From positions 1 through 59,324 of the IMG/VR virus record IMGVR_UViG_3300020442_000455: DNA of 59,324 bases. One strand, given 5' to 3'. A program made the position numbers and the translations under genes. The notes below the pieces were generated by a model that had not been told where the DNA came from, did no database searches, and saw nothing but the letters and a program-made list of their open reading frames with translations. The DNA is from a virus. Shown here piece after piece: positions 30,877-54,000 of the stretch. Position 1 is the first letter of the stretch, and each line of letters opens with the position of its first letter.

Positions 30877-32409
30877 TTAGAACTCGATTACGATTTTGAT
30901 ATCTTCGATCTGGTCGCTTGCACGACTAATGGACCTTCTATTATCTAGGTAAATAATTTCACCCGTGTTGAAGGAAACCTCAGGTTTTGCATAACCTGCG
31001 GTAAATCTCATACCCAAATCATACTCAGTGTTGTTGATAACACGAGAGGATGTATTAGGCACTGATGGGAAGTTGATGTCAGGTTCAGCTGAAGAACCAG
31101 ATGACGCACCCTGAATAGAGTTAGACCCATCAAACTCATTTAGGGAACCAGTAACTTCAGGGAAGATACCGTCAACTCTGTTCTGATAATATTTCAGAAC
31201 TTTAGTCGTAGCGTTCCAAGAGATTACTCTCGCTCTCGATGTAACCGAAGAACCACCGACAGTACGAGTTTGTGTAATAATTTCATCAGGCAAGAAGTTG
31301 CCTTGGAAAGTAGGTGAGAAGATAACTGCTCTAGTTGTAGAAGATGTTAGGTCAGACAACAATTCGGTAGTACCGAAGCGTAGTGGGTTGACCACAAGAC
31401 CGACACGACGATAGTCGTTATCTACAGGGAAGTCACCAGCACCTTCATCATAAGACAGTTTTGCGTTGATCATGACACGGTATGCACCGAGTTCGATGAT
31501 AGAGTCAAAACCATGACCACCAGGAGGTGGAATAATAACGTCAATCTGTGCAGCAGCACCAGTACCAATACCAGAGATAGCGTCAACGCTAATCTTTCCA
31601 AAGGTATAACCAGTACCACCAGAAGTTACAGTTGCAGAGATGATCTTACCACCATCAACAACAATAGAAACACGACCACCAACACCGTCACCAGCAATAG
31701 CAACGTTGTCGTAAGTGCCGTTGTTGTAACCAGAACCAGAAGAAGTGATGACAACAGTGTCAACCTCACCAACAACTGCGTTAGTTTTCACTGAGGTGTT
31801 TGTGAAAACTGGCATATATTCGTTCGAGAAGAACTTTAGAACCTGTGCCACTGGGATGGTGTACATGTACTTCCAACGATAACCATCAGCAGTAGTGATG
31901 ATAGAAGTAGAAGTACCAGTTGGTTCGATAGTTGATGGTTTTCCGTTAGGATCCGAGGGCGACGTGCCATTGTAAATACACTTATAGACTTGATAGTTCG
32001 TGTTGACGACGTAAAAGTCTGCATCATATAGTTTAGTAGCACCAGATGCTGCCGTGTTAGTTGGCGAGTAATCGTGGCGATACATGTCATATGTGAAACC
32101 GAGACCACCAGTGGTTTGTTCAGGTGGAGTCCAGTCGATACGACGAACGACTTGAATAGTATCCGATGCCAAGATTCTCTTCATAGAGATCATGTCATCG
32201 TAAGAATCTGAAAACTGGTCAAAAGCATCAATTGCTTGTGGTGGGGAGTTTTCGTTATCCCAAGACTGTGGTCTGCCGATGAACACATACAAACGGTCCC
32301 TACTGGAACCAGCATCCGCATCGGACTGAGTGGAGTCTGGTCCCTCAAGTGCTTTGATGAACTTCTTTGCAGAGAAGATTCTAAATTGATCTGTTAGTAG
32401 GGCTGACAT
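30877..32409 (-). CDS. 8: Baseplate wedge protein gp8 with inserted beta-repeats
   Basis: This 510-aa protein matches T4 gp8 (334 aa) over both ends. The N-terminal part shows the family pattern LYVFIGRPQSWDNEN and VVRRIDW, then STIEP and DGYRWKYMYTIPVAQ with NEYMPVF. The C-terminal end GEIIYLDNRRSI, with IEDIKIVIEF, parallels the T4 gp8 terminus. Between them, residues about 215-295 are an inserted Gly-rich beta-repeat pair (SSGSGYNNG, SGGTGYTFG) absent from T4 gp8. An exact TATAAATA lies 25 nt upstream, so gp8 starts a new unit shared with the 2462-aa protein and two coiled-coil proteins. Confidence 0.88.
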   Translation of the reverse strand: MSALLTDQFRIFSAKKFIKALEGPDSTQSDADAGSSRDRLYVFIGRPQSWDNENSPPQAIDAFDQFSDSYDDMISMKRILASDTIQVVRRIDWTPPEQTTGGLGFTYDMYRHDYSPTNTAASGATKLYDADFYVVNTNYQVYKCIYNGTSPSDPNGKPSTIEPTGTSTSIITTADGYRWKYMYTIPVAQVLKFFSNEYMPVFTNTSVKTNAVVGEVDTVVITSSGSGYNNGTYDNVAIAGDGVGGRVSIVVDGGKIISATVTSGGTGYTFGKISVDAISGIGTGAAAQIDVIIPPPGGHGFDSIIELGAYRVMINAKLSYDEGAGDFPVDNDYRRVGLVVNPLRFGTTELLSDLTSSTTRAVIFSPTFQGNFLPDEIITQTRTVGGSSVTSRARVISWNATTKVLKYYQNRVDGIFPEVTGSLNEFDGSNSIQGASSGSSAEPDINFPSVPNTSSRVINNTEYDLGMRFTAGYAKPEVSFNTGEIIYLDNRRSISRASDQIEDIKIVIEF

Positions 32410-32444: not shown

Positions 32445-35400
32445 TTATGAGAACTCGTTTCTGATAAGGTTATCGTATTGGATATCCTTGACCCTCCATC
32501 GAGCACCATTATTACCGACAATTTCCTCACCGCCTAAGATTGCCTCAAGAACGGCACCTTGTCCTGTGGTATCACCTACAGCATTAGTTACTGTAATTGT
32601 TGGGTGTAAATTGAATGAATTATCTACACTCTGTACATAACCATAACCTTCAGTCGTCATGTTGATAGACTGAATTTGGTCACCTGATGCAGTCATGGTT
32701 GCTGTTGCTACAGCAGAAACACCTGTCGCAGTCGTTTCAATACCGATCGTAGGTGTCGCAGTGTAGTTTGTACCAGGATTGACAATCTTCATATCAATAA
32801 TGCTACCATTCTTAGAGAAGGTATAGAAACTACCGTTAGTTCCAAGGTTTACATTACCAGTATTGAATGGCGTAATGTTACGGACAACTAGTTCTCTCGT
32901 AGCATTATTCCAAGATGTCACAGTAGCAACAATACCAGACTCAGATCCTGTTACAATTTCATCAACAAAGAAGTTTTGATTATTGGTATATCTACCATCC
33001 AAAACAATAGTCAATGTAGCAGTGTGGTCGATACCATCACCCAGAGCACCTGCAGTATCAATCCTAGCAATCTTCAGAGGGTTGCTGGTGTCATTGATAG
33101 TATCACCAACTTGGAACAGAGTGGTATTCTGACCACCGACAGTTTCTTCAATACCATACAATGAACTGAAAATACCACCATCTAGAGAAATTTGGTTCTC
33201 ATAGGCAGTACCAGTATTATCTAGATCTGGGATGTCATCATCATTATCATCCACATAAGCAGTATTTAGCAGAACTTGCTGTGGAACAACCTTTGTATTG
33301 TAGATAGGATCACCAACAAACAATGGAATACTCTCACCAATAACTTCTTCTGTTGTGTGTGGAAGACTAGATTGACCTGCAGAATCTGCAACCCCTGCAT
33401 CAAATGCAATAGTCAATTCTTCTGAAGATGGAATACCAGCATCAATAAATGCCAGATCATCAACTTCAAACTTGACAAATAGTTCTCTAGTTGAAGGAAT
33501 CCAATCATATACTTTAGCAATCTTATTACTAGAGTTATCTACTCTTCTAATAATCTTATCGCCAACTTTGAAAGTATATGTTGAGATACCTTCAGTGTTA
33601 TTTTGTCCAGAGTCTAGAATAACACGCTGATCAAATCTAAAGTTAGTACCTCTAATACAACCAGTAAATCTTCCCTTTTCTTTACCAGTGTATCTAACAA
33701 TCTCTCTACCAAGAATAAATGTGCCTGATCCATCAAATGCATCAGTATTATCAACAAAGATATTAGTATCTGTTGGTTGAGCAGACGATGCCAAACCACA
33801 GAAGTTATAGTCAACAGAGTTGAATGCTTGACGATTTCTAACCTTTCTCTTCAGGTTTACCAGTTTAGTAAAGATGATATTAGGTACTTCAGTATACCCA
33901 GCACCAGGATCTTCGACAATAACTTCGGTAACTTTACCCTGACTAATAACTGCTCGTGCTTTAGCACCAGTTCCTCTACCACCATCAATCAAAACATATG
34001 GTGCTTCAGTATAGAACTGACCACCATCATCAACATCAATTCTTGTGATCTTACCAGTCTTATCAACGTATGCAGCACCAGTAGCATCATTACCGCCACC
34101 ACCAATAAATGCAAGAGAAACTGCACTATTGTGATAGTCTCTGCCAGGTTGGATCAAAGATAGACCAGTAACAGTCTGGGTAACAGCGTTACCAATAGCA
34201 CCAGAACCTTCTCCACCAAGGATCTCAACCCTAGCAGATCCAAAATATCCATCACCATTAGACTTCATATTGACGTACTGAAGTGATCCTGCTGGATACT
34301 GTACGTTACCTTGACTGTCTAAAACTTCTGTTTCATATAGGACTGCTTCTGCCTTTGCACCTCTAGGAGAATCTAGATCTGCTGCAGGTAAAGTGTCGCC
34401 TGGTTTATATTCTTTACCGAAGAATCTAGGACCAACACCATATGGATATGCAGGATCACCACCTGCATCGATAGTCATAAAATAGGCATAAGTGCCATTA
34501 GGATACTCTGGGGTGACACAGTATCTACCATTGAAATCATCTAGATCAGCATTAGTGCTGTCATAGATGTAATCTTGGATAAATGTACCAGACTCATATC
34601 CATCAATAACAAGACGCTCTGCCATGTTTGCATGGTAATAGCAGAAATAATAAAGAATGATAGGTGCCTCTACAGGAACAGTAATTTCAATCCTTCTTAG
34701 AGTTGCACCATTGAAGTTAGCCCGATAGTTGTCATAGCTAACTTCTACATTTTCAATGAAATATCTTACACCCTGTTGCCAGACAGCTGCATGGTTTTCT
34801 ACAACCTGACTAGGAAGGTGCCAACCCTGAGCTGTGCTACTACCAAATACAGAAAATAGAATTGGGTGTCCAGTGTTAGTAGCATCATCTTGATTGAAGA
34901 CGTATGTACTGCCCCGCTCAAGATTCAAGAATGGTTTTTCGGTGTTGCTATATCCACCGCCAGTTACATAATATCTGTTACCTGCACCTGTTGTTTGTGC
35001 TGGTGCAACGGTAATTGTATAAGTTGTTGAAGAAGGTGTTACTACCTGTTCTCTAGTAGCATCAACTTCATTACCTGCTTTGACTCTATAACCTGTACGA
35101 ATTCTACTAACAGCAGATGGAATTAGAGGATCAGTAAATCCATATGGTCCATAGATTGGATATCCATCATAAGAAATACCTAAAATTTTACTATGACCAT
35201 TAGCATGACGAGAGTTATCGCCAGAAAAATTGCTATCTTTATAGTATGGAGCAACTGTAAATACACTAGCTGCTTGAGAAAAAGCACTGATTACATTTGC
35301 TGAGTTGTAATAATACTTTCCTATATCTGTGGGTTCTCTAGTTGTAGAACCATCATAAGGATCTTGACCCAAAATAGTTGGAGTCTTGACCATATCATAA

Positions 35401-36002
35401 CTATAGTTTGCGTACGCAGGAATACCTGGTGGCAAATCTAGATAGTCTGGAGTATGAAGTTCGACGCCATTTGCCATGATACCGACAACGGTATCTTCTT
35501 GAATGGTTCTTGCTTCTGTAGAGGGTACTTCCTTACCACCTCTATAGATGAATGTATGATCGTAATTTTGTGCATATACAATACCAGTAGCACTGTATGG
35601 TGCTGGATCAGGCAAATTATTACTAGTTACTCTAAATCTGTCATACTCAGTAAAAGTTGCTGCAGTGACAGATGTATTACTAGATACCCAAATCTCTTTA
35701 GGGTCAAACGTACTAACAACGGTGACAGAATCCTGTCTAGGTGTAATCTCAACCCTAAGAGGATCGTAACCCTTTCCAGATGCTAAAACTCTAATATAGG
35801 TAATCTTTCCAGCATCCTCATCAATAAAAGGATATAGAATCGCTTCCTCATCTGGTGTGCCACAATTATCCACAACCAGTCTAGGTGGATCGGTAGGATC
35901 ATATCCTGAACCTCCATCTACAACTTCTACCGATACTATGCCGAAATCTTCATTGAAAATTGGATTTAGTACCGCACCAGATCCAGGAACCGTTCTTGCC
36001 AT
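32445..36002 (-). CDS. Virion protein: YHYH domain interrupted by a cupredoxin-like domain
   Basis: This 1185-aa protein opens with Gly-rich beta-repeats (DGGSGYDP, ASGKGYDP). Residues about 230-290 match the first half of a YHYH domain (NGHSKILGISYDGYPIYGPY). Its second half (FIQDYIYD, NGRYCVTPEYPNGTYAYF) resumes only at residue 474. Between them, residues 325-466 form a cupredoxin-like unit: LERGSTYVFNQ, TGHPILFS with H379, and LYYFCYYHANMAE with C454, H457 and M460. More GSGY repeats follow, then an EIVRYTGKEKGRF-type module, a TSP3-like acidic run (DDNDDDIPDLDN) and further beta modules. The literal YHYH tetrad is absent. It probably sits at the baseplate periphery; no T4 counterpart. Confidence 0.8.
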   Translation of the reverse strand: MARTVPGSGAVLNPIFNEDFGIVSVEVVDGGSGYDPTDPPRLVVDNCGTPDEEAILYPFIDEDAGKITYIRVLASGKGYDPLRVEITPRQDSVTVVSTFDPKEIWVSSNTSVTAATFTEYDRFRVTSNNLPDPAPYSATGIVYAQNYDHTFIYRGGKEVPSTEARTIQEDTVVGIMANGVELHTPDYLDLPPGIPAYANYSYDMVKTPTILGQDPYDGSTTREPTDIGKYYYNSANVISAFSQAASVFTVAPYYKDSNFSGDNSRHANGHSKILGISYDGYPIYGPYGFTDPLIPSAVSRIRTGYRVKAGNEVDATREQVVTPSSTTYTITVAPAQTTGAGNRYYVTGGGYSNTEKPFLNLERGSTYVFNQDDATNTGHPILFSVFGSSTAQGWHLPSQVVENHAAVWQQGVRYFIENVEVSYDNYRANFNGATLRRIEITVPVEAPIILYYFCYYHANMAERLVIDGYESGTFIQDYIYDSTNADLDDFNGRYCVTPEYPNGTYAYFMTIDAGGDPAYPYGVGPRFFGKEYKPGDTLPAADLDSPRGAKAEAVLYETEVLDSQGNVQYPAGSLQYVNMKSNGDGYFGSARVEILGGEGSGAIGNAVTQTVTGLSLIQPGRDYHNSAVSLAFIGGGGNDATGAAYVDKTGKITRIDVDDGGQFYTEAPYVLIDGGRGTGAKARAVISQGKVTEVIVEDPGAGYTEVPNIIFTKLVNLKRKVRNRQAFNSVDYNFCGLASSAQPTDTNIFVDNTDAFDGSGTFILGREIVRYTGKEKGRFTGCIRGTNFRFDQRVILDSGQNNTEGISTYTFKVGDKIIRRVDNSSNKIAKVYDWIPSTRELFVKFEVDDLAFIDAGIPSSEELTIAFDAGVADSAGQSSLPHTTEEVIGESIPLFVGDPIYNTKVVPQQVLLNTAYVDDNDDDIPDLDNTGTAYENQISLDGGIFSSLYGIEETVGGQNTTLFQVGDTINDTSNPLKIARIDTAGALGDGIDHTATLTIVLDGRYTNNQNFFVDEIVTGSESGIVATVTSWNNATRELVVRNITPFNTGNVNLGTNGSFYTFSKNGSIIDMKIVNPGTNYTATPTIGIETTATGVSAVATATMTASGDQIQSINMTTEGYGYVQSVDNSFNLHPTITVTNAVGDTTGQGAVLEAILGGEEIVGNNGARWRVKDIQYDNLIRNEFS

Positions 36003-36011
36003 ATTACCTTA

Positions 36012-37247
36012 TTATTTGATTAGTAGCGTCCCAGCCATGTTTGTGTGAATAGTACACTGATAATATAGAGTGTTAGGTGCGCTATGAGGCACCGTAAAGA
36101 TCTGAGTAGCAGTCTGACTACCAGATACACCTAGTGTCCACTGCGCTCCAGAGAGACCCTGTGTGGACTGGAATCTGAATGGGTGGTTAGAACCAGCATT
36201 ATTCACAAAGATATATGTGAATCCACGATACAGATGCAATGTTGGGTCATCTGCTTGTGCTTGCCCAGGTCCTTCAATCAGATAAGAGTTATTATTCAAA
36301 CCAACAGAGATGATATACCAAATAGTTGGAGATGGTTGATTGACCCATGCAGCAGTTGCACCATTACCTTGAGGATCATACGTTAGAGCATCACCTCTAG
36401 AAACACTGGTGAAGTTTACATCAGTCAGCTCAGACAACTCGAAATTGCCGTCTACGTTGACAGTAAGAGTATCACCAGAAATTGCAGTAGTAACATTGGT
36501 GCCACCAGCGACAGTCAAAGTATCTGTAGGACTATCAGTAGTAGTGGATCCAGTGTCAGCAGCAATTGTTGACCATAGGTTTTGTGTTGCAGCACCTGCA
36601 GCATCATCACCAGGAATGAATTTAGTTCCATCCCATTTCAATACTTGGTTTAGTGTAGGGGCATTAGTAGTAATATCAACATCAGTTAGTTCGTCAATAC
36701 TACTATAGTTTGTAACTAGATCTGCTGTGATATCACCAGTTCCACCACCTGCACTAAGATGCACTTTAGGTTTTCTGTCACCATTCACCGTGAAGAAATA
36801 ACCTTTATTACTTGCTAGAGTTGGCGCGGCACCAACCGTAGCATATTCATTCTTATATGCAATGCTACCAGAGAACTGTGCTTGTCCAGTGGATCCATCA
36901 AAAACAGCAGTTTGACCACCATATGATAGAGATACGTCTCCAACACCATCAGGAACCAAATTGATTGAGTTGCCACCTGTACTAATAATATTGAAGTTAT
37001 TAGTATTGAGTGTTGAGGTTAGGTTTGAGAAGTGTTGTGGTACAAAATCACTTCCATTCCAACGCAACACATGACCAGTAGCAGCACCTGATGTGTTTAC
37101 TACAAGTTGAGATCCATTACCGAGTGCGCTATACACCTCAGTAAAGTTGTCGTTTAGTTTATCAGCACCTGCCCGCAGAGAGTCACCAGTACCATCGTTG
37201 GCCTGTGTGCCAATACTGACAAGTTGTTTTCCAGTTCCGTAGGGCAT
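36012..37247 (-). CDS. Fibre-like protein with C-terminal cupredoxin-like domain
   Basis: This 411-aa protein starts with a segment common in cyanophage fibres (GTQANDGTGDSLRAGADKLN, NFTEVYSAL). A repetitive beta region follows (LTDVDI and LTVAGG motifs). Residues 310-411 form a cupredoxin-like domain: LYRGFTYIFVNN, SNHPFRF with H355, FTVPHSAPNTLYYQC, and the cluster C398-x2-H401-x2-M404. This His/Cys/His/Met set resembles type-1 copper ligands, though C-x2-H-x2-M spacing is tighter than in plastocyanin. An AATAAATA element lies 20 nt upstream. It lies between the YHYH-esterase and YHYH-cupredoxin genes. Confidence 0.78.
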   Translation of the reverse strand: MPYGTGKQLVSIGTQANDGTGDSLRAGADKLNDNFTEVYSALGNGSQLVVNTSGAATGHVLRWNGSDFVPQHFSNLTSTLNTNNFNIISTGGNSINLVPDGVGDVSLSYGGQTAVFDGSTGQAQFSGSIAYKNEYATVGAAPTLASNKGYFFTVNGDRKPKVHLSAGGGTGDITADLVTNYSSIDELTDVDITTNAPTLNQVLKWDGTKFIPGDDAAGAATQNLWSTIAADTGSTTTDSPTDTLTVAGGTNVTTAISGDTLTVNVDGNFELSELTDVNFTSVSRGDALTYDPQGNGATAAWVNQPSPTIWYIISVGLNNNSYLIEGPGQAQADDPTLHLYRGFTYIFVNNAGSNHPFRFQSTQGLSGAQWTLGVSGSQTATQIFTVPHSAPNTLYYQCTIHTNMAGTLLIK

Positions 37248-37265: not shown

Positions 37266-37273
37266 TATTTATT
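37266..37273 (-). promoter_or_regulatory. Possible late promoter variant (AATAAATA)
   Basis: This element is one mismatch from TATAAATA on the minus strand, about 20 nt upstream of the 411-aa gene, overlapping the stop of the preceding gene. Confidence 0.4.
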
Positions 37274-38999
37274 AGGAAAGTGTTGTACCGTTTGTATTGA
37301 ACCACTCTGTAATTGCAGCAGTAAGTCCAACATTCAAACTATGACCAGCATTACTGGACAAATGTACAACTTGATTATTCAAGTATGACCACTTAGTCAC
37401 ACCAGAGTAATTGAAATATTGGGATCCATCTTCAGTTTGAAGAACTGCCCCAGTCCACCCCTGACTAACAGCAAACAAGAATGCACTGTCTCTAGCAGGA
37501 AGGAATACAGCACCTCCTGGTCCTGGTCCAGAAGAACCAGAGTAAGGTACGGTAGTATCATTGGCATTGTTTGCCTGCAGTAGTCTACGACCTGTTGGAG
37601 GAACTACTGTTGTATCATAACCATAATTTAGAACATCAGTAGATGTATTCTCATGATTAGATGGTCGATAGAACTGACCACCTCTATGTTGCTGGTTGTG
37701 AATCTGAGAAACTATAATACCAAATAGATCCAGACTCTCATCTGGAATCTCTGCAAATGCTCTAGCAACTAGAGCACCACCATTTGATGTTCCTAACAAT
37801 CTAATCTTATCTAGGGCTACATTTGCATATCCCTTCAGACTTGTAATTAGATCTGTCAACATTTCAATATCTGGAGCATCACTCTCATTGATAATGTTCC
37901 AGGAATTTTGATATCCTGTCGGTGCTACTAGAATGTGACCTGTCAGATGTTGCTGCCAGAACGTAATTTCATTAGCGCCATTACCACCATTACCATGCAA
38001 TAGAATTGCAACTGGTTTCACTCCTGGTCCTGCAGGAACATGAATATTTACTGGATAAGTAAATGATCCCTGACTCCAAGTTTTTGTGATTGTAAGGTCG
38101 GTTTCGTTAGTTAGAGGTGCTGGTGGTGTTGGTGGAGGACCTCCAACTGGTCTCTGTTCTTTAGTTGTATTGCCGAAGATATATGGATATACTGGACGGT
38201 TTTGTTTATCTAGTGTAAGAAAATACGCATATGTACCGTCTGGATATTCTGGTGTGAAACAAAATCTACCATTATGAATATCTAAAGAACCAAGATTCTC
38301 TACAAATTCATAGTCTTGAATGTATGTACCAGCAGGAATATCAGCATAAACTGAACCTCTGTTTGCAACAGGTGAAGGGAATGCTCTATAAGAACTCTTC
38401 ATTCTTACTACTGGAGACAATCTATCTCCAGGGTTTTTGTAAGAGAATGGTCCATACACAGGATACCCATCATAACAAAACCCAACAATCTTGGAGTGAC
38501 CATCTGGGTGTCTAAAATAGTCACCTTTATAGTTACTCTCGTTATAGTATGTGTTGGATGCGATAAGTTTAGATCCCCAGCAGTTTACTAGGAAAGATCC
38601 AGAATGATAATGATATGATCCATCCTGTTCAGGATGACCGCCACACGCATCTACACCGTAAGTATTTTCATTATATACGGCATTGTATGTAAATCCTGCA
38701 GGGGGTTGTACCTCAGAACCTGGTAAAGGACCAGGTGCTGCAGAGGGGTTGAAAAATGGAACACCATTTAGGGCAATACCTTGGGGACCAAGAGTAGTTG
38801 CTTGAGGATTTGATGTGTTTGTACCCGCTCTCAGTGCAAAAACTACATCCGTAGATTGTGGTTGGATAGTGTTTGGATTGCCAGGGAATAAACCAGAACC
38901 CAATGGGGTTCCATACAAAGCAGGATCAGGTCGCCCATCAGTGACGACCCGCAACTGGTTTGATCCTTGTATTGTTGCGGTAGTTGTTGATACTGCCAT
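37272..38999 (-). CDS. YHYH domain fused to an alpha/beta-hydrolase (PHB depolymerase/esterase type)
   Basis: This 575-aa two-domain protein has no T4 counterpart. Residues 100-275 are a complete YHYH domain: YHYH at 129-132, DGHSKIVGFCYDGYPVYGPF, FCFTPEYPDGTYAYFLTLD and VYPY. A Pro-rich linker (288-295) follows. Residues 300-575 look like an esterase of the PHB-depolymerase/feruloyl-esterase (CE1) group. They show the oxyanion loop LLHGNGGNG (335-340), nucleophile elbow GTSNGG (S405) preceded by VALDKIRLL, catalytic Asp in NANDTTVPYSG (D481) and His in NAGHSLN (H553). It starts 25 nt after gp7, with GAGGAT as ribosome site and a CCTAAATA element upstream. A virion enzyme acting on a host surface ester is plausible; substrate unknown. 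Confidence 0.85.
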   Translation of the reverse strand: MAVSTTTATIQGSNQLRVVTDGRPDPALYGTPLGSGLFPGNPNTIQPQSTDVVFALRAGTNTSNPQATTLGPQGIALNGVPFFNPSAAPGPLPGSEVQPPAGFTYNAVYNENTYGVDACGGHPEQDGSYHYHSGSFLVNCWGSKLIASNTYYNESNYKGDYFRHPDGHSKIVGFCYDGYPVYGPFSYKNPGDRLSPVVRMKSSYRAFPSPVANRGSVYADIPAGTYIQDYEFVENLGSLDIHNGRFCFTPEYPDGTYAYFLTLDKQNRPVYPYIFGNTTKEQRPVGGPPPTPPAPLTNETDLTITKTWSQGSFTYPVNIHVPAGPGVKPVAILLHGNGGNGANEITFWQQHLTGHILVAPTGYQNSWNIINESDAPDIEMLTDLITSLKGYANVALDKIRLLGTSNGGALVARAFAEIPDESLDLFGIIVSQIHNQQHRGGQFYRPSNHENTSTDVLNYGYDTTVVPPTGRRLLQANNANDTTVPYSGSSGPGPGGAVFLPARDSAFLFAVSQGWTGAVLQTEDGSQYFNYSGVTKWSYLNNQVVHLSSNAGHSLNVGLTAAITEWFNTNGTTLS

Positions 39000-39024
39000 T
39001 TCTGAAAACTATCCTCAGGTATAT

Positions 39025-42000
39025 TTAGGTGCTACTAGAGGACCATATATTTGTTGCCACATAACCAGACAGGTTGTAAACAGTTGATGGAGGAACTGTT
39101 TCGAGTTCTTCGATCGCCGTACCACCCGATGTTGCACCAGAGATGCCACTACCAGCGGTTGTACCGCCACTTGTAGTGTTCGTGTTATCATTGACACCTA
39201 ATTGCTCTTCCGTCTCTGTTACAATCCCGCTACCTACGCCTCCAGCACCCAGAGCATCAATCACTGGTGTTGGTGTAGCATCTGCAGGATAGATTGAAAG
39301 GTTAGGAGCAACGTAATTGTCATCCACAACACTCTGAACCTCAACTTCAGGATATTTGTAACCACTTCCTCTATTAGTAAGTTCGATACGCTCAACACCA
39401 ACCAGAGCCTTGATATTTGCATTATCACCTGTGGTGGAATCAATACGAACTAGTGGGCGACTAGTGTATCCAGAACCACCTGCGGTTACTCTTGCTTCAC
39501 GAATAGAACCGATTGTCAAACCTTGTGTTGGGTCAACAGATGCTGCAGCATCCTTACCAAAGACAGATCCTAGATAATCGAATGTGATGAGCGAGTTGGA
39601 AGATTCGATAACAGCAACCTCTCTATCCTCGGTCTCACCTTGGATGTCAATGAAGTCACCAGGTTCGATTGGTGGAATAACAATCTCAGCGTCAACGTCT
39701 GCCTCAGAACCAACATAGGAGAACGCTACAAATGTAGATCCTACGCGAGGAACTTCAGCAAAGATGATTCTAGAACCAACCAAGTTGAATGCGACTCCAG
39801 GTTCCTGAATAACACCATTGAGCGAGACGATAATGTTGTTCTCTGGACGTACAACACTGGACTGTACACCATCCGTCAACGTCAGTGAGTAGAATGTGCC
39901 ACTACGACGTAGGTTGAAGGACTGACGTAAGGAGTCAAACTCGAACGAGATATCATCGAGTTGTCTGAGTTTACCAAGATAGACGCCCACGAAAGATGCG
40001 CCAACCTCAGGTGCCTCTTGGAATTGAATGTTATCGGAGAATGCTGTGTATGCATTATCAGAACCAGGAGGTTGCAGAATACCATTGATGAAGATCAGCA
40101 TGTGACCTTCTGGGTCTGGGAAGTATGGAGTACCGTTTGCAGTGGTTAGTTTGAAGGTAGTTTGTACACTATCAAATCCACGGAAGGAACGCTTGACACG
40201 AGCCTTGAGTTCAACGACAGTTTGTACCTGTGCTCTATATCCACCGCGTGCTTTGAGTGTTTCGCGAGAAGACCAGGTGCCACGAATGTCTTCGAGGAAG
40301 ACTCTCTTGGAAAGACCGATGGTCTTGATGTCTACAACGCGAGCAGCTGCATTGCCTGTTACTGGTAGTGAAGTTGTAATGATAGCATAACCAACTGGGA
40401 ACTCACCTTCGACTGGACCGTAGTAAGCAAAACCATCACCATTATTGAAAGTACCCAAATAAGGTTGAGCGTAAATATAACCATTATCTAGATCAACTTC
40501 AGTGATAACTGCACGTCTGTTAGTATCTTTGACACCACCAGAAACACCATACAGAATGCCACCTTGAGCAAATTGATTGAGATTACCTTGTACTGTAACG
40601 CCATAGCGTACATAACCATCAGAAACAATTCTCTCACCAACGTTGAGTTCTAGACCAGCAAACTGGTTGATATCAACATACAAACGAGAAGACTCTGGAT
40701 AGACAACCGAAGTTGTTTCAAATGGTCCTACAAGAGAATCTGTGTCAACAGTTAGTTTACCACCAGTGTTAGAAAGAACTGCTGCTTCAGACTTGATAAA
40801 TGCAGTAGTATCTGCTCTATTACCACTAGTATATCCTTTGAAGTTTACACCGTCCACGAAAGATCCCTGTAGACCAATCAAGTGTAGACGAGGTGTGATA
40901 GCATCTACAGTTGCGTAAGCACCATCATTGGAAACTACGATATCTGCAGCTGCCCATGTACCACCAGTTACAACTACATCCAAGTAACTGAAGTTTTCAT
41001 CAGACCAGAAGGAGTAAATTGTACCCGTTACAGCAGTGTCGCCTTGCTTCTGTACAGTATCATTGAGGATAAATGGTCCATCATTGATATTGCTAATTCT
41101 CATTCTGAGATAAGTAGTGGCAATTTCTGCTTCGTTGACATTATATTGTTTGACCTCAACAGTATTGTCAGAAAGAAGACCATAGATGAAACTAGACTGC
41201 CTAATTTCACCACCCAAAGGTACAGGAACATTTCTAGTACCGAAGGTCTTAGTCTGTAGTGTGATATTGTTCTGTCTACTGACGGTAGTGTAGTAGAGAT
41301 TATTAGTAAGTTGATTTTCGTATAGATCGACTAGAGCAGTAACAACAGTTTGTGCATTTGCTGCAGTATAACGAGCTGCGAGAGTTGCATCGGTGAAGGA
41401 GAGGAATGTAGTGATTGGAGAAGGTGTGACCAACCCTTGTGCCAGAGCAAGTCTCATATACTCATCCAATTCCTCCAGAATATAACTTCTGATATTCAGA
41501 CTGTTATCTGGGAAGAACGATGTGCCACCTTGTGCTTCATAAACATCTAGATCACCTCTGTTTAGTTTGGCACCCCACATGTAAACACCATCAGTGCCAT
41601 TACCTGCAGTGTTAGTAGAACCATTAGATGTACCGTATGCTTTCAAGTTGAGGCTAGAAACACCGAATGGAATGTCAGCAGTGATAAATGCTCTATACCA
41701 ACCACCACCTTGTGGGAATACCCCTGTCGCGACAGGAACAATACCTGCAGAGTTGACAGAGAATGGATTACCATTCGTTAGGTCGATAGTAAAGAACACA
41801 TAGTTATTTCCGTCCCAATCCAAACGAATTCTTGCTCTGTCGTTTCCACCTGCTTTGAAGAAGATGGAGAATGTATAACGCTGAGCTGAGATGTCAACAC
41901 CCTCGTCAAAAGAGTTAGCATCAGAGTCAAACGTGACGTTATCGCGATCGAACGTAGTGTAAGCAGTAAGAACATAAGATCTGCTGAGAGCCTTATCGTT

Positions 42001-45000
42001 AGCATTATTTGCTGGGATGATAAGATCAGCAGTTGTCGTTCCGTCAGGAGCAGTTGCAGAGTTAGCAGTTACTGTAATGTCGGTAGAAGTAGCAGCGTTC
42101 CAAGTACCACTAGTGAACTCTTCAGTTTGGTTTGCAGGGATCAAGTTCAGACCAGCAGACAGATCAGAAGATACATTCAATGATCTGATGCTATTCAGAG
42201 TCTGAGTGTTGTTGATTGCAGTGCTAGCAGGGTTGGTAGAGATATCAGTCAGTACCATATCATGGATGACATCATCAACTACCTGTTCGATAAAGGAATC
42301 GAATGTAGTATTCCAAGCTGTGCTACCCCACTGGTTGATAACATCTTGTTCAATTTCAGTATTATAGTAGTTCTTATTGAACAGAATCATCTGTGCTGCA
42401 GCACGACCAGGGTCACCACCAGGTGCTAGAGTCGCGAGCATTACAGTGAACAGGTTGTCAATGCTACTTTGTACATCAGCACAATCAGAAGCGGAATAGT
42501 TACCACCAGCACCACTTTGATCGTGTGTGATAGTTGTATCTACAAAAGCTTCGCGAGTTGTATATTGAGCAACATAGTGATCATTGGACAACTGAATGTT
42601 GTTAGAGGTTTGTAGTAGGTTCGCGACTGCTTTCTTAGCAAGGAATTGAACTTGTTCAAATGCGTATAAAGTAGCAGTCAGTTGATCCTCAACATGCAAA
42701 ATCTCTAGTTGAGAATTCAGATATTCCTCAACAGCTCTCAGAGAACTATTGTTACCACCTGTTAGGAGGTCAGCAATGACAGCTTCCAGGATAATACCTG
42801 CGTCACGGATACACTTATTTCTACCGTCAACACTACCACCAGGATAAGTAAACGCTTGATATTGAACACCGTTAGAGAGTTGATAGAAGAATTCTTCTTC
42901 CATCAAACCAATTGCCTCTTCAGTGATGTACTGTTTGTTGAACTTGAGTAGATCAGCAGCATCAACATATCTGTCACCAACAGGAGAGATGATGGTGTTC
43001 ATGTTTGTAATCAAGTTGTCAATTGTTGTCTTGACGTTTGCACAATTACCAGCATCTTGAGTAATACCAATATCAGAGATGACAATAGCATCGGTATATT
43101 GAGTTACTGCTTCCAGATCTCCAGTAATAGCAAGTTTTGCCATCTCACCCAGAGTCTCATGTGCGAACAATGACGCATAGAGTTGTAGACGAACATGTTG
43201 AATTTCATCATTCTGTCCGAGATAGAACTTAGCACCCTCAGTGGTGTACTTATTACCACCAAACTTCAAGTCTTTGATGATTGCATTGAGTAGTAGAGTC
43301 AGGTCAGTCTTACAACGATCTGTACCTGCACCAGTGCCATCACCGTTTCTTGGCATCTCAGTTGCCAGAGATGGATAGCGAGCAAGCATTCTACCTGCAG
43401 TTTCATCAACAATCGCCTCAGTATTGATCTCAATCAGATCAGCAGCATCGATGTATCTGTAACGGCTGTCAGGATAAATTTCATTGACATAGAAGTAATC
43501 ATTGACAGTATCTACAGCGCGAACTGTAAGATCATCAGAACGATATGCGTAAACCTTACCACCTGCCCATGCGTATGTTGGTACAGTTCTAGTAATAGTT
43601 CCAAGGTAATCAACTGCAACTGCGTTAGGATCTGCAACTAGTTCAGCAGCAGAAACATATGCCTGATCAAGAGTATTAGTAATAATCAGGATAAGGTTGT
43701 CCATTGCAGTAGCAACGTCAGCACAATAAGGAGAAGAACTATCAGTGGTGATTGTATTATCAACCACTTGAGTCAATCCATGATCACCCTGAATAGTTAC
43801 GGTATCACGTCTCATGACTTCCTTGGCAATTGTATTTGCCATATCGATTGCCCAGATCGTCTCTGCCTCTTCACCAACGATGTGGTTCAAAGTAATTGGA
43901 GTCACGCTACGGTTTACATACTGTGCAGCAGCGTCCCAAATATAAGCGTTACCACCATTTCTAACGTCACTCAGTAGAGCAGTTACAATTAGTTTAGTAT
44001 CAAGAGTGCATTGTGCATGGTTAGGATGTGTTCTAGTAACCTGCGAGATAGAAGAAGGATAGTTAGCAGCATCGTTACCATCAGGATCCATAACGGTATC
44101 TGTGACAATCTTCATCAGAGTGTCGATGGATGCCATTTGATCCACACAACCACCAAACAGATAAGTGATTGTAGCATCAGTAGTTTGAGTCAAACCATGA
44201 CTACCACTGATAGTTACTGTGGTGTTATTGATAACTTGCTTAGCGATGTCTCTTGCTTGGTTGAAGACATTGACGGAATCAGTCTCATTACCAGACAAGT
44301 GTTGAATTGTAGTACCGTTGGTATACAGTTCTGCAGCATCCCAAGTCTTAGAGTTGAAACCATACTTCAGGTTGTACGCGATGTTACGAACAACATCTTT
44401 TACGTCGTCAATACAATCTGCAGCGGTAGTTCCTCCAGGAGGAGTTGGGTTGACTCTCTCATATGCCTCATTAGCAATGAAGTTCAGGTTAGAAAGAATT
44501 AGGTCATGTGCATCAGCACCTTTGTTATTAGCAACAGGGGCAGGAATGTGAAGACGTGGGAAGTTACGATCCATACGATATACTGCCTCAGCAGCAATCA
44601 GATCGATATTAGATTCTACCTGATTAGCAGCATCATAGAATCTGAACTTGATTCCAGAGTTGACAAACTCATTACCCTGTGTCCAGGTAGCGGCACCAGA
44701 CCAGTCAAGAGTAGTGGTAGCGTCAAACTCTCTTTCAAAATGTAGAAGTAGTTTGATACCAGCAACACCCTGGTAAATACCCGTGCTAGGAGTAAAGTTA
44801 GAACTATATGTCGTATCCGTGCGGATCATGACCTCATCGATCTTGCCAATGAAACCAGATGTTCCATCATATGCAGTACCGACTGTAACTGCTTTAGCAG
44901 GGTATGACGTATTGTCTGTACCATTACCACGGTTTACACCATCAATAAACAGTGCTCCATTGTTAGATGCTCGACTATATGCAATGTGATACCAAGAACC

Positions 45001-48000
45001 TGCAGAAAGTGGGGCAGCAGCAGCATTAGCGACTGTAGCGCCATTGACTTCAACTGTAACTACAGCGTTATCGATGTAAATTCTAACTGCCGTATCTGGT
45101 GCAGAAGCACGCATGTCTAGGATAGTTACCTGACCTGTTAGAGATGCAGTCTCTGGATAGATCCAACATTCAGTGATGAAACCATTTGTACCGAATGCAA
45201 AATCGGAACTAGATGGAACAACAGCGTTACATCCAGCAGTTCCATCTAGTGTCAAGGAAGAAAGGCCGAACTTAGGACCAGTTGTGCCAAGAGTAGCAGT
45301 TCCCGCAAGAGTTACAGTATGATATTCTTCACCAGTTGCAGTACCACGACCAGTCTTTCCAAGATAGATGACCTTCTCACCAGCGTTATAACCAAGAACT
45401 TCTGCTTTTGCGTTCTCGGATCTAATAATTTGACCTGCGCTAAAGAATCCATCACCCTCAAAATCAGACAGTGCCAACTGTCTCAATTGTGCAGTTTCTC
45501 CTACAGCAAGAGGACCAGATTCATTGCCATATTCAAATCTGTAGTTGCGAATATTCTCTCCAGCTACTAGTGGATTGGTAGCATTGTTATATTCTAGAAC
45601 ATAGTTGTTTACAGATTCGCCTCCAGGGAAGTTAGAATCGAACGATACTAAGTTTGTAGCGAAGTCATTGATCTGGATTTGAGAATCTGCAACGTTATCC
45701 AAGACAACGTTTGGATATGTTGCGTTGGAGATTCTATTGAACAGAAGACCGAAGAATGTAGAACCTTCGGAAATAACAACTTCAGGAATAGATGTATTTG
45801 TAACTTCATCAGTATAGATGAAGGATCTTGTAATAAACGATACAACACCAGAAGAGAGTCCGACAATAATATCATACTGTGCAATCTCAAGAAGACCAGG
45901 TGTAGACTGATATGTACCTGTTGTCTTACTGATAGACAGATCTTGAGTAACCTCAACAACTGTGCTGTATACAGGACCACCTTCTTGCTGTTGTGCAGGT
46001 GCAGTACCAGACTGACCTCTAAGGACAGTCAGAATTGTTGATTCTGTAGTGGTTTGTACGTTACTAACCTCAAAAATCTCAGAACCAAACTGATACTTGA
46101 CTCCATTGACAAATGTACCAGCTGGTGGTGGTGCAGGTGCCTGTGTAGTAGAACCGTAAGAAATAACCTCAACGGTAGTAGAACCAGTACCAATAGTATA
46201 TCTTAGTTTAGCAATAGGAGATTGCTGACCAACAGATAGGTTGATTTCTTCAATTTTTGCCTTCTCACCACCCAAGTTGGTGATTGTTTCACCAAACGCA
46301 AACAGGTGATCGTTACTATCAGCACCATCCTTCAGTTGAGTAACGGTACTCAAGATACCTAGGAAACCAGTTGCAGATACAGAGAATGTCTCACCAACTT
46401 GATAACCAGCTTCTGTAGCAGTAGATTCTTGCAGACCACCATTAGTAGTCAACGCAGTATCTGCTAGACCATTCCAAATAACATCGATACTATTACCAGA
46501 GGTTCTAATGACAGTACCTCTCCAACCAGTAGTCAGACCAACAATAGTATTACCTAGAGTTGGGAAAATGCCAGAGACATTGCTGAAATCTAGTCTGTAT
46601 ACAGTAAGGAAGTCAATTTCGATATTTGCATAACGAACCATTGCTGCTGGTTGTGGTGGTTCAGCAAAGACAATGTTGCTACCCTGAATGCTAAAGGATG
46701 TTCCTGGGTTCTGTACAACACCATTCAGAACAATCATCATCTGGTCAGCAGATGCAGAGACACCTTCTTGGTTGACTGCTAGTGGGAACGAGATTCTCTC
46801 ACCATCAAACAAGTTGGAAATATCATCCAAACGCTGTACAGAAGATGTTAGAATGTTCTCTGAAGAGGTCAGTCTTCTTTGACGGAACAGAACTTCAGTA
46901 TTGTTATACTGAGTATAGATTGGTTCTACCAGAGCAAAGTTCTGGATGTTAGGTACAACTGTAGCATCAGACAAGTTGACAGACTTAGTAAGTTCAAAGT
47001 CAGTCTTTCTATTCTCAATAAGTGTCTGTTCACTGAGGTTCAGTTCACCGAACAGTTTGAAACCTGCAGGGTGGCAGTTAGTTGTAACCAGTTCTCTCCA
47101 GTTATCAATGGATACGGAAGATTGAACAACATAGGAGAACGACTGATAGAAGTAAGAATCCTGTACTTTCTGAATAATTTCGGATAGTTTACCAACATCA
47201 TCGACAAATTGACCAGTAGTTCTAGTAATAGAGTCAATGTCAAGAACACCACGAGCAGTAGATAGGTCTGCAATAATACCAGAAGACTTAGAGATCTTAC
47301 CAGTGATCTTTTCATTTAGTTCAAAGACTCCAGTATAATCTACAAGTTTGAGTAGTCTAGGTCCGACCAACCAACCATCGTTCTCAGAAACATAACCAAT
47401 CGCAGTTGGATTGTTTACATCTTCACCTTGATAAATTTCTTCTCCTGCTAGGAATTCGCCAGTACCAACATTTGCCTCTGCAGCACCACCGAAGGAATCG
47501 GTTAGCAGAATTTGACGACCAGAACCAGCATTCACAAAGGTTAGTGCATCACCAAGTTCTGCGTTATTAGAAGTAATAGCGAGTTTTAGTTGATCATCCT
47601 CTAGGGAGTTTGCACTACCAGTGATAGCATAGTATGTGGTAGAAGCATTCAGTGTGCCAGTTGCACCAGCAGCGATTGGGAATGCTGCCTCATCATCACC
47701 ATCATCTTGAGATTGAAGTTGTACTTGCGATCCGTTGGCAATACCATGTGGATATGAGAACTGCAGAAGACCCAAATCAAGGTTTACAACATAGTTGAAC
47801 GAGGACTTCAGAGAAACAACTGGTTCGGAAGAATAACCTGCTCCAGGATCTTTGACAAAGATCTGATCGATACGACCATTCTTGATAGTTGCCTCAGCAA
47901 TAGCACCTGCACCGCCACCACCTTCAATGATGACAGTAGGAGGTTGTGAATATCCAGAACCAGGATCTGTAACAGTAATGCTACGCAGAACACTAGTATT

Positions 48001-51000
48001 GATCAACTGAGCGTTGATTGGGAAAGTAATTTCAGGACGTAGAGTATAATCATGTGGATAGTCATAACCGAAGTTGTTGTTCTTCAGTTTCTTGATCTTA
48101 CCGACATTAGCACCTTTGGTGAAGATAGAAGCACCAGAACCAAAAGGAGGAATCTCTACTTCCAGTTGAGCACCAGAACCAGTCAAACCAGGACCGAGAA
48201 TATCTGGAATTGCTTCAATGTCAATAGTTGCTGTAGTATATCCCTTACCAGCACTGGTAATAATTACACTACTAATTTGACCTGGGATGGTTTCTCCTTC
48301 TGCATCCTCACCATCAGTAACCGTGATTTGTACAAGACCGCCGTCACCGTCACCTTGAATAGGTACGCTATAATAAACACCAACCTTATATTCAGTACCA
48401 GGTTCGACAATATTGACACGCTCAATCTTTCTACTAGAAATGATGTTGCTAACGATAGGTAGTTTCCTATAGAATCCACCAGGGTTGACAATACGAATGT
48501 TACCAATTTGTCCAACTACAGAAGTTGCAGATGTAGTATAAGAAGATTGATTGACATTTGCAGCACCTTCAGGTTCATTTGCTAGAGGGAACTTGATAAC
48601 ATCTGGCCCACGAGTAATTGTAGCACCAGCCAAGATACCAACTGTAAACTCACCAAGATAAGGAGAATCAACAACGTCGAGATAAGCGTTTTCATTTACA
48701 GGAGAGTTAGCTCCAATTCTAGATGGATCGAAGTAGTAAGAGATGTTTGTAATCTCAGGTTGAGTAACTCTGAATGCTACCGTAGCACCAGTTCCTCCAG
48801 GAAGACCAGTTCTTAGAATAGAGTTGAATGAATACTCTAGTTTGTTCAGGTTATCCTTGGAGAAGGATAAGAAGTATCCATTCATTGAAGTATGACTTAC
48901 ATCAAACTCATACTGGTGACCATAATACATTTTGATGACTGGAGACTTAGCATAAACCTCAACAGCGCCATAGTTACTGTCAGCAGGATTAGATTGAGCG
49001 ACAGCAGGTAGTTTGTATACAAATTCTTTAGTGCCAATAACTCTATCGACTGGGAAAGAACCATCATACTCATCAATCTGTACAGAATTCACTGTTCTGC
49101 TTGGGTTACCTTCCACAAACAGCATGTCTCCAGCAGACAGATAATGTCTGTTGCTAGTAACAACATATACATCATCAGTTCTAATGGCAGCTGTTGGTTT
49201 GATAACCTTCTCAAGAGTACAGAACAAGGTTGCTTTAGTTACACCAGTGATACCACTAATAGTAATATCAGTCAGAGAAGTATTGTTATATGCAATAGGA
49301 AGAACCGTTCCAGTTAGAGGAGGTGTTGCAGGAACTTCAGGAATAGAAATAACAGAACCCTTTACATATGCTGCGGATCCAGACACCTCATCAATTCTTA
49401 GAGAATAATAAGGAATTGCTGCTTCGCCAGTAGATACGTTATAGAATCTAGCAAATTGGTCAAGTGTACCACCAGAGTAAGATACTGTAGACATATCAAA
49501 CTGGAATGTACCAGGGGTTGATGCGGTTACCTGTGGGAACTCAAATTGTTTGATTTGATTGACATCATTAGGTACAGGACCAGTGATATCAAGACCTTCC
49601 TCATCAAACTGAGTTGTAGAAAGTTCATAGTTGCCTGCAAGATCATCCGACCAATCGTTATTATTGATCGCAACATATACCCAGTTGTTTGGTTTGTCTA
49701 CACTAACAATATAAGCACTATTGATAAATGTACCAGCAGTTAGATTGTTATTGACTAGAGTAGAACGATTTCTCAATTCTAGTTTGGTCTTAGCAGTAAA
49801 ATCTGCAGGTTGATTTAGAGACAGACGTAGAATATTGTCAATCTTGACAGTATTTTGCTGTTTGATGAAGAACTTACCAAGGACAGATGCAGTTACCTTG
49901 ACTTTAGCAGATCCTGGTGCTGGAACAGTTGCAGTTCTAGAAGACCAGATATCATTAGCATATGTGGATGCAAATCCATCAAGAAGATTAGTTACGTTGG
50001 AATTATCGAAATCTAGTAGTTGTAAACCACTAGAACCAAGTGTCCAGTTACCAAGAGATACTGAAGTTAGTGAAGTTGGTATAGTAAACGAAGTGGTTGC
50101 AGTTCTAGTAAACTCAAATCCACTGAAATTGGAACCTAGGTTTGGATGCTGACCAAGACGGGCAGAATCATTGTTTTTATCAATCTTGAGTTGAACGCCG
50201 ATATAAGGGATATCATCATTCTTATAAAGATATGTTCCTCTGGTAGTTGCATTACCCAACCAGTTGAGATCAGTAAATGCATAGTTCTCAGATGTAGACG
50301 ATCCTAGATCGCTAGGCATCGTGAAACTAGTAATTGATCTGTTTCTTAGTTTGATGTAGTTGTAAGAACCACTAAATTGTAGAGTAGCTTCAAATACACC
50401 AGAAGAAGCAATACCAGGAACGTTACCAAAGTAGAGGTTTCTATTAGCATTAGAGACATTAGTAGTGTTACCAGTGATGGACTCAGTGCCATTGAAGAAT
50501 ACTTTGAAGTTATCGCCAGTTCTAACAAGTGCAACATGATGCCATCTATCTTCAAGGAACTGTGCAGCAGGACCTGTCAGAGGAGATACACTATTCAGTG
50601 CCTGAGTGTTATTTGCAGCATACAACTCAAGTCTCTTAGTGCTCTGATCAATCATGAGCATGATGCCGCCATTTAGTTCAGCACCCTCAGTAATCGCAAC
50701 TAGAACATGATTTGTCTGACTATTGTTAGTAGATCTAGCAGAAGGTAGGAATGCAAAGAACTCTAGAGTGAAATCTTTACCATCACCAAATGCATCCTGT
50801 AGAGCATAGGTAGAGTTATCCCAAAGAAGATATGTTGGAGCGTAGGAACCAGAACCGCTAGATTCTTTTCCATACAGTTTCAATCTATTAGAATTGACTG
50901 CACCAGAGGTATTTGTCTGAGTTAGTGTAGGAGTATCAGTTGTAGATGCTGTAAAGGTATCACTTCTATCAACAATTGGGTTTGCAGCAGAATCAACAAA

Positions 51001-54000
51001 CTCAAGAACAAATTCATTTCTATTCCAGAAGGATTGACCAGAAATGTATACATCACCAGAATTATCAACTGCACCAGCAAACGCAGCAACGCCATCAGCA
51101 CCAGATGCCATGACATTCTTACTATGCTTAGTAATCTTACCATCATAACCAAACTTATAAACATCTACACGCTTACCTTCTGGTTTATCAATAGTTACTA
51201 GAACATTACACTCACCGAAGATATCAACACCCAATCCAGTGATAGATGCAATTGTAGTGGACGTAATATCAATAATTGGATGTCTGTAGTTCCAAATCTC
51301 AGTAGCGTCGATATCAAACTTCGCCAACCAAATAGCATTGACGTATTGTTGTGTTTTGTCATATAGACCAGCAGTTACAACAAATTCATCAAATTCATTG
51401 AGAGAGAATGATAGATCTTTGAACCAGTTTGCAACATGAGTGTATTCCTTAGTCCAAACCGAAGTAATACCGAATGCTTCAACCTCAAACTTAGCAATAG
51501 CAAATGTAGTATCAGTGGAAGATGCATTAGGAGCAATTTCCATCAAAGCGTAGATAAACTGATCTTTTACGATGATATCTACTACTCTCTCAGTTTTATC
51601 GGTAGAAGACAGTTTTCTCTTGGTGACAAACTCACCAGTATCACTCATCAGAGCAATATAAGCATCATCTGGGTATGCAGAGTTAGTATTAGTATAACCA
51701 CCAATTACAAAGCGGTTATCGCTGTATTGTACAATTTTATTGACATAATCAGCACGAGTAGCACCAGAGATACCACCAATACCCTTCTGGAATCCTAGAG
51801 ACGCAGAAAGACCGTCTGCTGCCTCATCAAAACGGCAGAAGATGATATCTGGGTTGTACAGGTTCTGAATAGTTGCATTTGGCGTAGTTTCGCCTACAAC
51901 ATAGATTCTGTTGTTGTAATATGCAAGACTCTTGAATGTGCAGGACTTTACACCACCAGAAGCAGGAGAACTGGATGAATATGTCTTCTCCCATTGCTTG
52001 GCACCAGTTGCAGACATCTTAGCAACAAAACCACAAGTTTCGCCAGAAGCATTTAGAGTCTCACCACAAATATAGGTAACTTTGCTGTCTGTGACTAGAG
52101 TATCATTGATTCTTGCCCATTTTTGATTATCAATAGACGTAATGTAATAATCAGTCTTCTTGAGAATCTGTGGATGAGAAACGATGATTCTAGGATCACT
52201 AGTAAAATTAGAACCAGAGTTCAGAATATTGAATTCGTTGATAGCACCTGTTGTAGGGTTGATTACAGGTTGAATGACAGCAGAATTGCCATCACCGTCA
52301 ATTTGAACCTCAATAGGTACATCATCGTTGTATCCAGTACCAGTTTGAGTGACAGTTAGTCTTTCAATACCATCAACGACACGAACTTTGAGTCTCTTAT
52401 TAGAATCGTCTAGTTGTGCATTATATCCTACTTGGACCTTATCGCCAATATTGATTTCATGTGGGTCAGCAGTTGTGATAACACCATAAGGAGTATCATT
52501 GATAGTTTCAAAGTTATATGATGAGATAGTCTTACCACGGATAGTAGAAACAACCGCAGATGCTCCAGAACCATCAGTATCAGTATTATCAAAGATCAAT
52601 CTATCATTGACCTGATAGTTAGCACCAGGGTTTTCAACAATAAAACCAGTTACCTTAGCATCTTCAAATTTAGTTGTAGTTTCAACTTCAATATCAACTC
52701 TAGAGTCAATACTGACTTTAGGGAAGTAATCAAACAGTTCTAGTTTAGATTCTTCTAGAATCTGATTAGGTTCTGTAATTTCAGTACCACTGATAACACC
52801 ATCACCATTATCATCCATTGGTTCAAACAACAGTTGAAGTCCATCTTCAGTGGTCAGACTGTCAGTTTCAACGTTTGGAGAACGCTCAACATCAATATCA
52901 ACATTCTCGTATGGATCACGGAATCTAATAACACCTTCTGGAATGTTTTGCTGTACAGCATCTCTATTCAAGTTCCAAGTATCAACAATAGAGTTGTACG
53001 ATGGTCCTAGAATATATGGGAATTGTGGAATACCATTTTCAGATGCATCAATAGTAACAAAATATGCGTAAGTGCCATCTGGATACTCAGGTGTCTTACA
53101 GAAACGACCATTGTACTGGTCAAGATCCCCAAGACCAAAAACATATTCGTAGTCTTCAATAAACTGACCTGCCGCATTTACTGCAAGTGGAGGTCCAGAT
53201 GTACGAACTGGGTCTGTGTTAGTAAGAGAGTTATATACCAGTTCACTCTTCAGTCTGTAACTTGTAACAACACGTTGGATCTCAGAACCCTGGTCAGTAG
53301 GATCATCATAACCATATGGACCATAAATTGGGTTACCATCAAATGCCCAACCAATAATAGGAGAGTGTTCTACATTTTCGCTTTCAGTTAGAGCACCAAC
53401 AGCACTAGAAATGATATTATCACCAAGAACGTATCTTAGACGTTGTGGGTTGGATAGATGACCATATTCACCACCATACTGATTATTATATCCAGAGAAC
53501 ACGCCACCATTAGCTGCATCAGTTTCTGCAGTCTCTCTAAGGTTATAAGTCCACTGGAATACTTCAGAATCAAATTCAGCACCTTCACCAACAGATACTA
53601 GGTCAATAGTTGTAGTACCTTGAGTGTAAGCAATACCTTTGTTTAGAATTTGGATACTAGTAACACGACCAGCATTTTCACCGTCAGTATCGATAACAGC
53701 ACGAGCTACAGCACCGAAACCAGAACCACCAATGATAACATTAGGTGCTGTGGTGTAACCTTGACCAGCATTGATAACAGCAATGGAGATGATACGACCA
53801 TTGTTGACAATTGCCTGTGCAACAGCACCTGTACCAGAACTTAGGGTGATAATTGGTTTAGATGTATAATCTTGACCACCATTAGATACGTTGACCTGTT
53901 TGATAGGACCACGAACCTTCGCCTCAGCAGTAGCACCAGATCCACCGCCACCAGAAATGGTGATAACAGGTCTAGAGGTATATCCTGTACCAGGAGAGGT

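Follow-up and report, generated by a model that had tools for sequence, protein, structure and literature searches.

What would a phage do with an esterase encoded among its baseplate genes? The question is raised by a 59,324-bp viral fragment from IMG/VR, the whole of which was analyzed here and is called the window. At 37272..38999 on the minus strand it encodes a 575-residue protein in which a YHYH domain is joined through a proline-rich linker to an alpha/beta-hydrolase. An earlier note had described this fusion and named its motifs, giving no strand; the ORF proved to be real, every motif could be located, and the plus strand across the same interval is full of stops. The protein belongs to phrog_2576 (E=4.6e-272, 905 bits; residues 1-575 aligned to profile positions 1-587) and has full-length homologues. 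That family is already catalogued, function-less, and cultured cyanophages of at least three genera carry it.

Architecture of the protein and its YHYH domain

Residues 60-265 (38205..38822; all parts of the protein lie on the minus strand) form the YHYH domain, which matches PF14240 with E=4.6e-41 and 141.3 bits against a gathering cut-off of 25. The literal YHYH motif pointed out in the earlier note is present at residues 129-132 (38604..38615), but the conserved core lies elsewhere. H130 and H132 vary across the wider family, whereas H164, H168 and D177 of the stretch H164-x-D-G-H168 ... D177 (38469..38510) are invariant in all 106 distinct YHYH domains and are candidate metal ligands; D166 is mostly kept. 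The window holds two other YHYH copies, one within a giant ORF (39025-57666) and one within a baseplate wedge ORF (32445-36002). Both are degenerate, the wedge copy reading YYYN in place of YHYH and carrying N in place of D166. The domain also occurs in the baseplate proteins of phrog_708 and phrog_2885.

YHYH has been predicted to be a Zn-dependent, tail-associated hydrolase (PMC7824862), and a second paper lists it, likewise as a prediction, with domains that pelagimyophages and cyanomyophages may use in recognition (PMC7029224). Should the former prediction be right, the fusion would be a two-enzyme protein. Full-length structure prediction from 19 sequences yielded a usable esterase and a poor YHYH half with pLDDT <50, for which reason we make no claim about the YHYH fold. 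A sequence search found no solved YHYH-domain structure, and an alignment that pooled sequences having either YHYH or the esterase alone misaligned the two domains and was left out of the modelling. The linker, VGGPPPTPPAPL, spans residues about 284-296 (38112..38150) and marks the point at which esterase-less relatives stop; the remainder, residues 297-575 (37275..38111), is the CE1-like esterase domain.

Fold and catalytic triad of the hydrolase

Searched as a single sequence, the hydrolase has no Pfam match above cut-off (best E=0.12, Chlorophyllase); the evidence for this half of the protein is structural and comparative. An AlphaFold2 model of residues 293-575, for which 80 phage and bacterial sequences were aligned, reached a pLDDT of 97.1 and a pTM of 0.94, and structure comparison of this model returned Z scores of 17-25 to many members of the alpha/beta-hydrolase superfamily. 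The top VIA-align match was acetyl xylan esterase B of A. oryzae (9j07; Z 24.7, rmsd 2.9, 246 residues). Feruloyl esterase 8jh8 (Z 22.4), AXE 5x6s (Z 21.0), the PHB depolymerases 9byu (Z 21.1) and 8daj (Z 20.9), and the thioesterases and carboxylesterases 5syn (Z 21.1), 1fj2 (Z 20.5) and 1auo (Z 20.0) were among the further matches. Structural similarity to CE1 enzymes (9j07, 8jh8, 5x6s) thus extends across the whole catalytic domain. With the A. oryzae enzyme the domain shares its fold over nearly the whole length, with the G-x-S-N-G-G elbow and the catalytic-Asp motif in register; it differs in sequence (16% identity) and in falling below every curated profile. Moreover, CE1 acetyl xylan and feruloyl esterases are secreted alone, whereas the window's domain is mounted on a phage protein.

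Curated profiles do not name the hydrolase: with the window's domain as query no Pfam profile passes its cut-off, and NCBIfam offers a single match, short-chain PHA depolymerase NF050058, at 26.8 bits against a cut-off of 150. The profile esterase_phb (TIGR01840) was not reported for the window's protein (P0001). Other phage esterase domains gave only weak E-values against Pfam, and the A3 profile reached 9j07 only weakly (E=3e-4). The earlier note had considered a storage polymer as one possible substrate; since the closest structures also include acetyl xylan and feruloyl esterases, and the PHA-depolymerase score falls so far short, that idea is left without support.

The catalytic residues occupy the places expected of the superfamily. 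In the model, the predicted nucleophile S405 (G-T-S-N-G-G; 37785..37787; model residue 113) sits between strand 394-404 (model 102-112) and helix 406-417 (model 114-125). The predicted catalytic acid D481 (NANDTTVP; 37557..37559; model residue 189) is in the loop just after strand 472-478 (model 180-186), and the predicted catalytic H553 (NAGHS; 37341..37343; model residue 261) is in the loop between strand 544-549 (model 252-257) and the last helix. By the model's secondary structure these positions follow beta5, beta7 and beta8, the canonical alpha/beta-hydrolase topology. Judged from topology and superposition, the atoms of the three residues would be expected to converge, and the earlier note's view of a CE1- or PHB-depolymerase-like protein with a complete triad is borne out by the predicted fold.

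Comparative evidence points the same way. When phage and bacterial kin are aligned (129 rows), aspartate is found at position 481 in 127 of 129 rows, serine at 405 in 123 of the 127 rows with a residue there, and histidine at 553 in all 126 such rows. Of about 127 relatives from phages and bacteria, nearly all thus show the triad conservation expected of the superfamily, and S405, D481 and H553 are invariant across all fusion proteins of the window's kind. The oxyanion-loop HG noted earlier is present at residues 335-336, with H335 (37995..37997) kept in 126 of 129 rows, but G336 is not conserved among relatives (HGN, HGA, HGS, HDD, HPN). Pairwise dN/dS lies at 0.14-0.25 in the esterase and at 0.05-0.17 in YHYH, rough figures because several pairs are highly divergent at synonymous sites, and indicates purifying selection on both halves.

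The esterase serine has been replaced in another phage group, by aspartate in three sequences and by glycine in one, so the domain can persist without it. A side observation concerns phage loci in which a membrane protein of the SbmA/BacA family (PF05992; E about 1e-116 for both of those scanned) is encoded between the YHYH and esterase-baseplate genes (L070:5519-6541, L196, L197, L200, L202); the serine is lost in four of these five (D, D, D, G). Where aspartate stands in for the nucleophile (G-F-D-T-G; L070:6765-7583 and about 6007-6834 in L200 and L202), the triad Asp and His are kept. Such domains may be either dead enzymes or Asp-nucleophile hydrolases as in dehalogenases.

Genomic setting and occurrence

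The gene lies in a baseplate operon. Upstream is a giant ORF of 6213 residues at the gp7 position (39025..57666), which contains one of the degenerate YHYH copies; downstream follow a gp9-like baseplate wedge tail-fibre connector (36012..37247; phrog_677 E=3.4e-158, T4_gp9_10_N E=6.1e-08), the baseplate wedge subunit of phrog_708 with the second degenerate YHYH copy (32445..36002) and the gp8 baseplate wedge (30877..32409; PF09215 E=2.9e-17, T4 gp8 structure match 8e-09), all on the minus strand. A VrlC-type protein of 2462 residues (23484-30872), named from its S-ShM2 homologue, comes next. Placing the gene between gp7 and gp8, as the earlier note did, is therefore loosely right as regards the operon, but its direct neighbors are the giant ORF and gp9, with gp8 two genes further on. 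S-ShM2, S-SSM4 and ACG-2014d all have the order giant ORF, YHYH(-esterase), gp9, wedge, gp8, VrlC-type. The giant ORF, a single reading frame, fills about a third of the window, and its S-ShM2 homologue is annotated 'structural protein'.

A CTAAATA element (39022..39028, minus strand) begins about 28 nt upstream of the start codon, and each of the 15 homologous loci inspected has (C/A)TAAATA ahead of this gene. Within the window, TAAATA occurs at -50 to -18 of 9 of the 22 listed gene starts, against 0.17 expected from random placements; CTAAATA alone shows no enrichment over the whole window (6 against 8.5 expected). T4-type late promoters have the form TATAAATA, and the element fits a promoter of this type.

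The slot between the giant ORF and gp9 does not always carry an esterase. Among the 31 rows of the sampled tree it holds YHYH with esterase in 13, YHYH alone in 11 and YHYH with an Ig-like tail in 7, the Ig label resting on P-RSM6-like tails judged by eye. In one case (L026) the YHYH domain is 82% identical to the window's and the protein stops where the linker starts, and on the YHYH tree the starred branches require that the esterase was gained or lost at least three times.

Of phage-collection records, 456 match the 575-residue protein somewhere and 63 do so across at least 80% of it. The esterase alone, used as query, retrieves 65 records, the additional two being ACG-2014h; a plasmid search gave no match. 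Surveying other marine phages for the fusion recovered it end to end in S-RIM14, S-ShM2 and S-SSM2 (72% identity), S-SSM4 and S-SSM6b (54%) and ACG-2014d (50%). The phrog_2576 proteins of S-ShM2, S-RIM14, S-SSM4 and ACG-2014d share gene position and catalytic residues with the window's and show no difference in kind, but their records, which speak of 'YHYH domain-containing' or 'hypothetical' proteins, annotate no esterase, and in S-RIM14, S-SSM4 and ACG-2014d the protein is labeled 'hypothetical'. Our literature search found no paper on a YHYH-esterase protein of the phrog_2576 type; PMC3037559 mentions a cyanophage carboxylesterase in six genomes.

Proposed function and alternatives

We propose, with moderate confidence, that the gene encodes a late, baseplate-associated YHYH protein carrying a working CE1-like serine esterase that removes acyl groups from a host-surface glycan at adsorption. 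Following late expression, the YHYH domain would attach the protein to the virion baseplate. S405 would serve as nucleophile, with D481 and H553 completing the triad of a working serine esterase. At adsorption the enzyme would take acyl groups off a host-surface glycan or exopolymer, O-acetyl or similar esters being the most likely, and the deacylated surface would allow the baseplate and fibres to reach the receptor. This is the best-supported reading of the ORF, its domains and fold, triad conservation, purifying selection, the operon, the promoter-like element and repeated scaffold fusion, from which we infer incorporation into virions, exposure at their surface, catalytic activity and an acylated host glycan as substrate. 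To be set against it, the fold family spans acetyl, feruloyl, PHB and thioester hydrolases, and the oxyanion glycine varies. Since many close relatives, such as that of L026, keep the YHYH gene without the esterase, esterase activity would be dispensable for the baseplate itself.

Virion-associated esterases and deacetylases of the SGNH type sit on the tailspikes of other phages. They resemble the window's protein in the role proposed here, glycan deacylation at adsorption, and differ in fold and in their trimeric tailspike setting as opposed to a baseplate YHYH protein. The virion proteome reported in the accessible part of Sullivan 2010 (PMC3037559) is that of S-SM1, which does not carry the fusion, compared with S-PM2 and Syn9. 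A deacylating role would suggest a function for phrog_2576, and it bears on how T4-like cyanophages, most of whose baseplate-operon proteins lack a functional annotation, get past the outer layers of Synechococcus and Prochlorococcus cells, with possible chemical editing of the host surface. Cultured phages carry the esterase, its triad intact, at a fixed place in the operon, and close relatives naturally lack it.

It could be argued that the domain binds rather than cuts, the esterase fold acting as a carbohydrate- or lipid-binding recognition module in which catalysis is incidental. The turnover of presence and absence at one slot resembles that of recognition modules, Ig-like tails stand at the equivalent place in other lineages (P-RSM6, L078, L090), and the four serine-less sequences of the other phage group would be accommodated readily. 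However, the invariance of the triad in fusions of the window's kind and its presence in nearly all the bacterial enzymes would not be expected of a pure binding module, and we regard this reading as unlikely.

Alternatively, the hydrolase may act on acyl groups of lipid or protein, its target being an outer-membrane lipid, a lipoprotein or an acylated S-layer protein. Acyl-protein thioesterases and carboxylesterases do follow closely in the fold ranking, but the best-covering matches are polysaccharide esterases and PHB depolymerases, aligned over 246 and 235 residues as against about 195 for the thioesterases, which leaves such a target doubtful in our view.

A late hydrolase that is not part of the virion, working in the cell or lysate on a storage polyester or a released acylated polymer, appears improbable. 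PHB depolymerases are among the structure matches, and the sole NCBIfam match, though far below its cut-off, is to a PHA depolymerase; nonetheless, the domain is fused to YHYH, itself a domain of baseplate proteins, its gene falls within a conserved baseplate order, and its kin are fused to other baseplate scaffolds. Marine picocyanobacteria are not known to store PHB.

Finally, that the protein is the gp7 baseplate wedge initiator, as the GenBank name of S-ShM2 ADO97705.1 has it, is scarcely credible: the remaining full-length records among the matches listed call the homologue 'hypothetical', and the protein consists of YHYH and an alpha/beta-hydrolase. No gp7 family is found among the Pfam and PHROG matches and no profile backs the name, although gp7 is reported to be very divergent among T4-like phages (PMC3037559).

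The esterase as a movable module

The deacylating esterase proposed above is found on more than one kind of protein. In one scaffold, seen in another set of viral contigs, YHYH has a gene of its own; next, immediately or with a single gene in between, comes the gene of a baseplate-fibre protein of ~1165 residues that carries the esterase near its N terminus with He_PIG-containing sequence behind (L184 and many others). In another, esterase and YHYH are parts of one long fibre protein (L229-L232, L235, L237-L239, L160), with the order esterase then YHYH in L160. A further scaffold, found in ACG-2014h, L218, L227 and L234, is without YHYH: in these proteins of ~975-990 residues the esterase lies in the second half, behind an N-terminal subtilase (PF00082 in ACG-2014h and L218), and in ACG-2014h and L218 it is followed by a cupredoxin-like tail.

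In the esterase tree, built by a quick method and leaving several forks open, the window's kind and the subtilase (S8) kind fall together (SH-aLRT 98); the baseplate-fibre kinds make up a second set, whose closest neighbors are a few bacterial sequences. The ACG-2014h protein (AHB80591.1, phrog_9158) shares the esterase subfamily at 45% identity, and its kind (L218, L227, L234) groups with the window's; it differs in that a subtilase-cupredoxin scaffold replaces YHYH.

Bacterial kin are 35-50% identical over the domain and come mostly from marine or aquatic Bacteroidota, Planctomycetota (Phycisphaerae) and Verrucomicrobiota (Opitutia), among others. These secreted esterases (L095-L174) share the triad motifs, and their function, too, is a prediction; some bear secretion or other tails in place of phage domains. 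Por secretion tails were seen in two of those scanned and a weak dockerin-like match in one, in keeping with an extracellular site of action.

The esterase comes, goes or changes place among close relatives and so looks like a mobile, swappable module for work on the host surface. That it turns up on four scaffolds suggests that what marine phages exchange in host recognition includes enzyme cassettes as well as fibres. It is tempting to go further, and we offer this as a speculative possibility: the fusion may be a two-enzyme baseplate tool, a metal-dependent YHYH hydrolase and a CE1-like esterase acting on one acylated surface polymer of marine picocyanobacteria, drawn from a mobile cassette pool that was taken by marine T4-like phages from the secreted enzymes of particle-degrading bacteria and is plugged into different baseplate proteins, tracking host surface chemistry. 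In the literature searched we found no account of a baseplate-operon YHYH protein bearing a CE1-like alpha/beta-hydrolase, or of such modular traffic among marine T4-like phages.

Two observations accompany these scaffolds. The 335-kb contig L160, which encodes an esterase-YHYH-baseplate protein, is binned as Candidatus Neomarinimicrobiota and is probably a misbinned large phage or prophage. Cupredoxin-like tails are not confined to the subtilase scaffold: they occur at the end of the gp9-like ORF (36012-37247) and inside the wedge ORF (32445-36002), as well as in the ACG-2014h protein (L012:4270-7194), where subtilase PF00082 (E=1.5e-20) and a CE1-like esterase share the chain. The putative type-1 copper ligand pattern in these baseplate-operon proteins, NHPF ... 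C-x2-H-x2-M, gives 43 distinct matches when the ORFs of the window and of the retrieved loci are searched, whereas shuffled ORFs give none.
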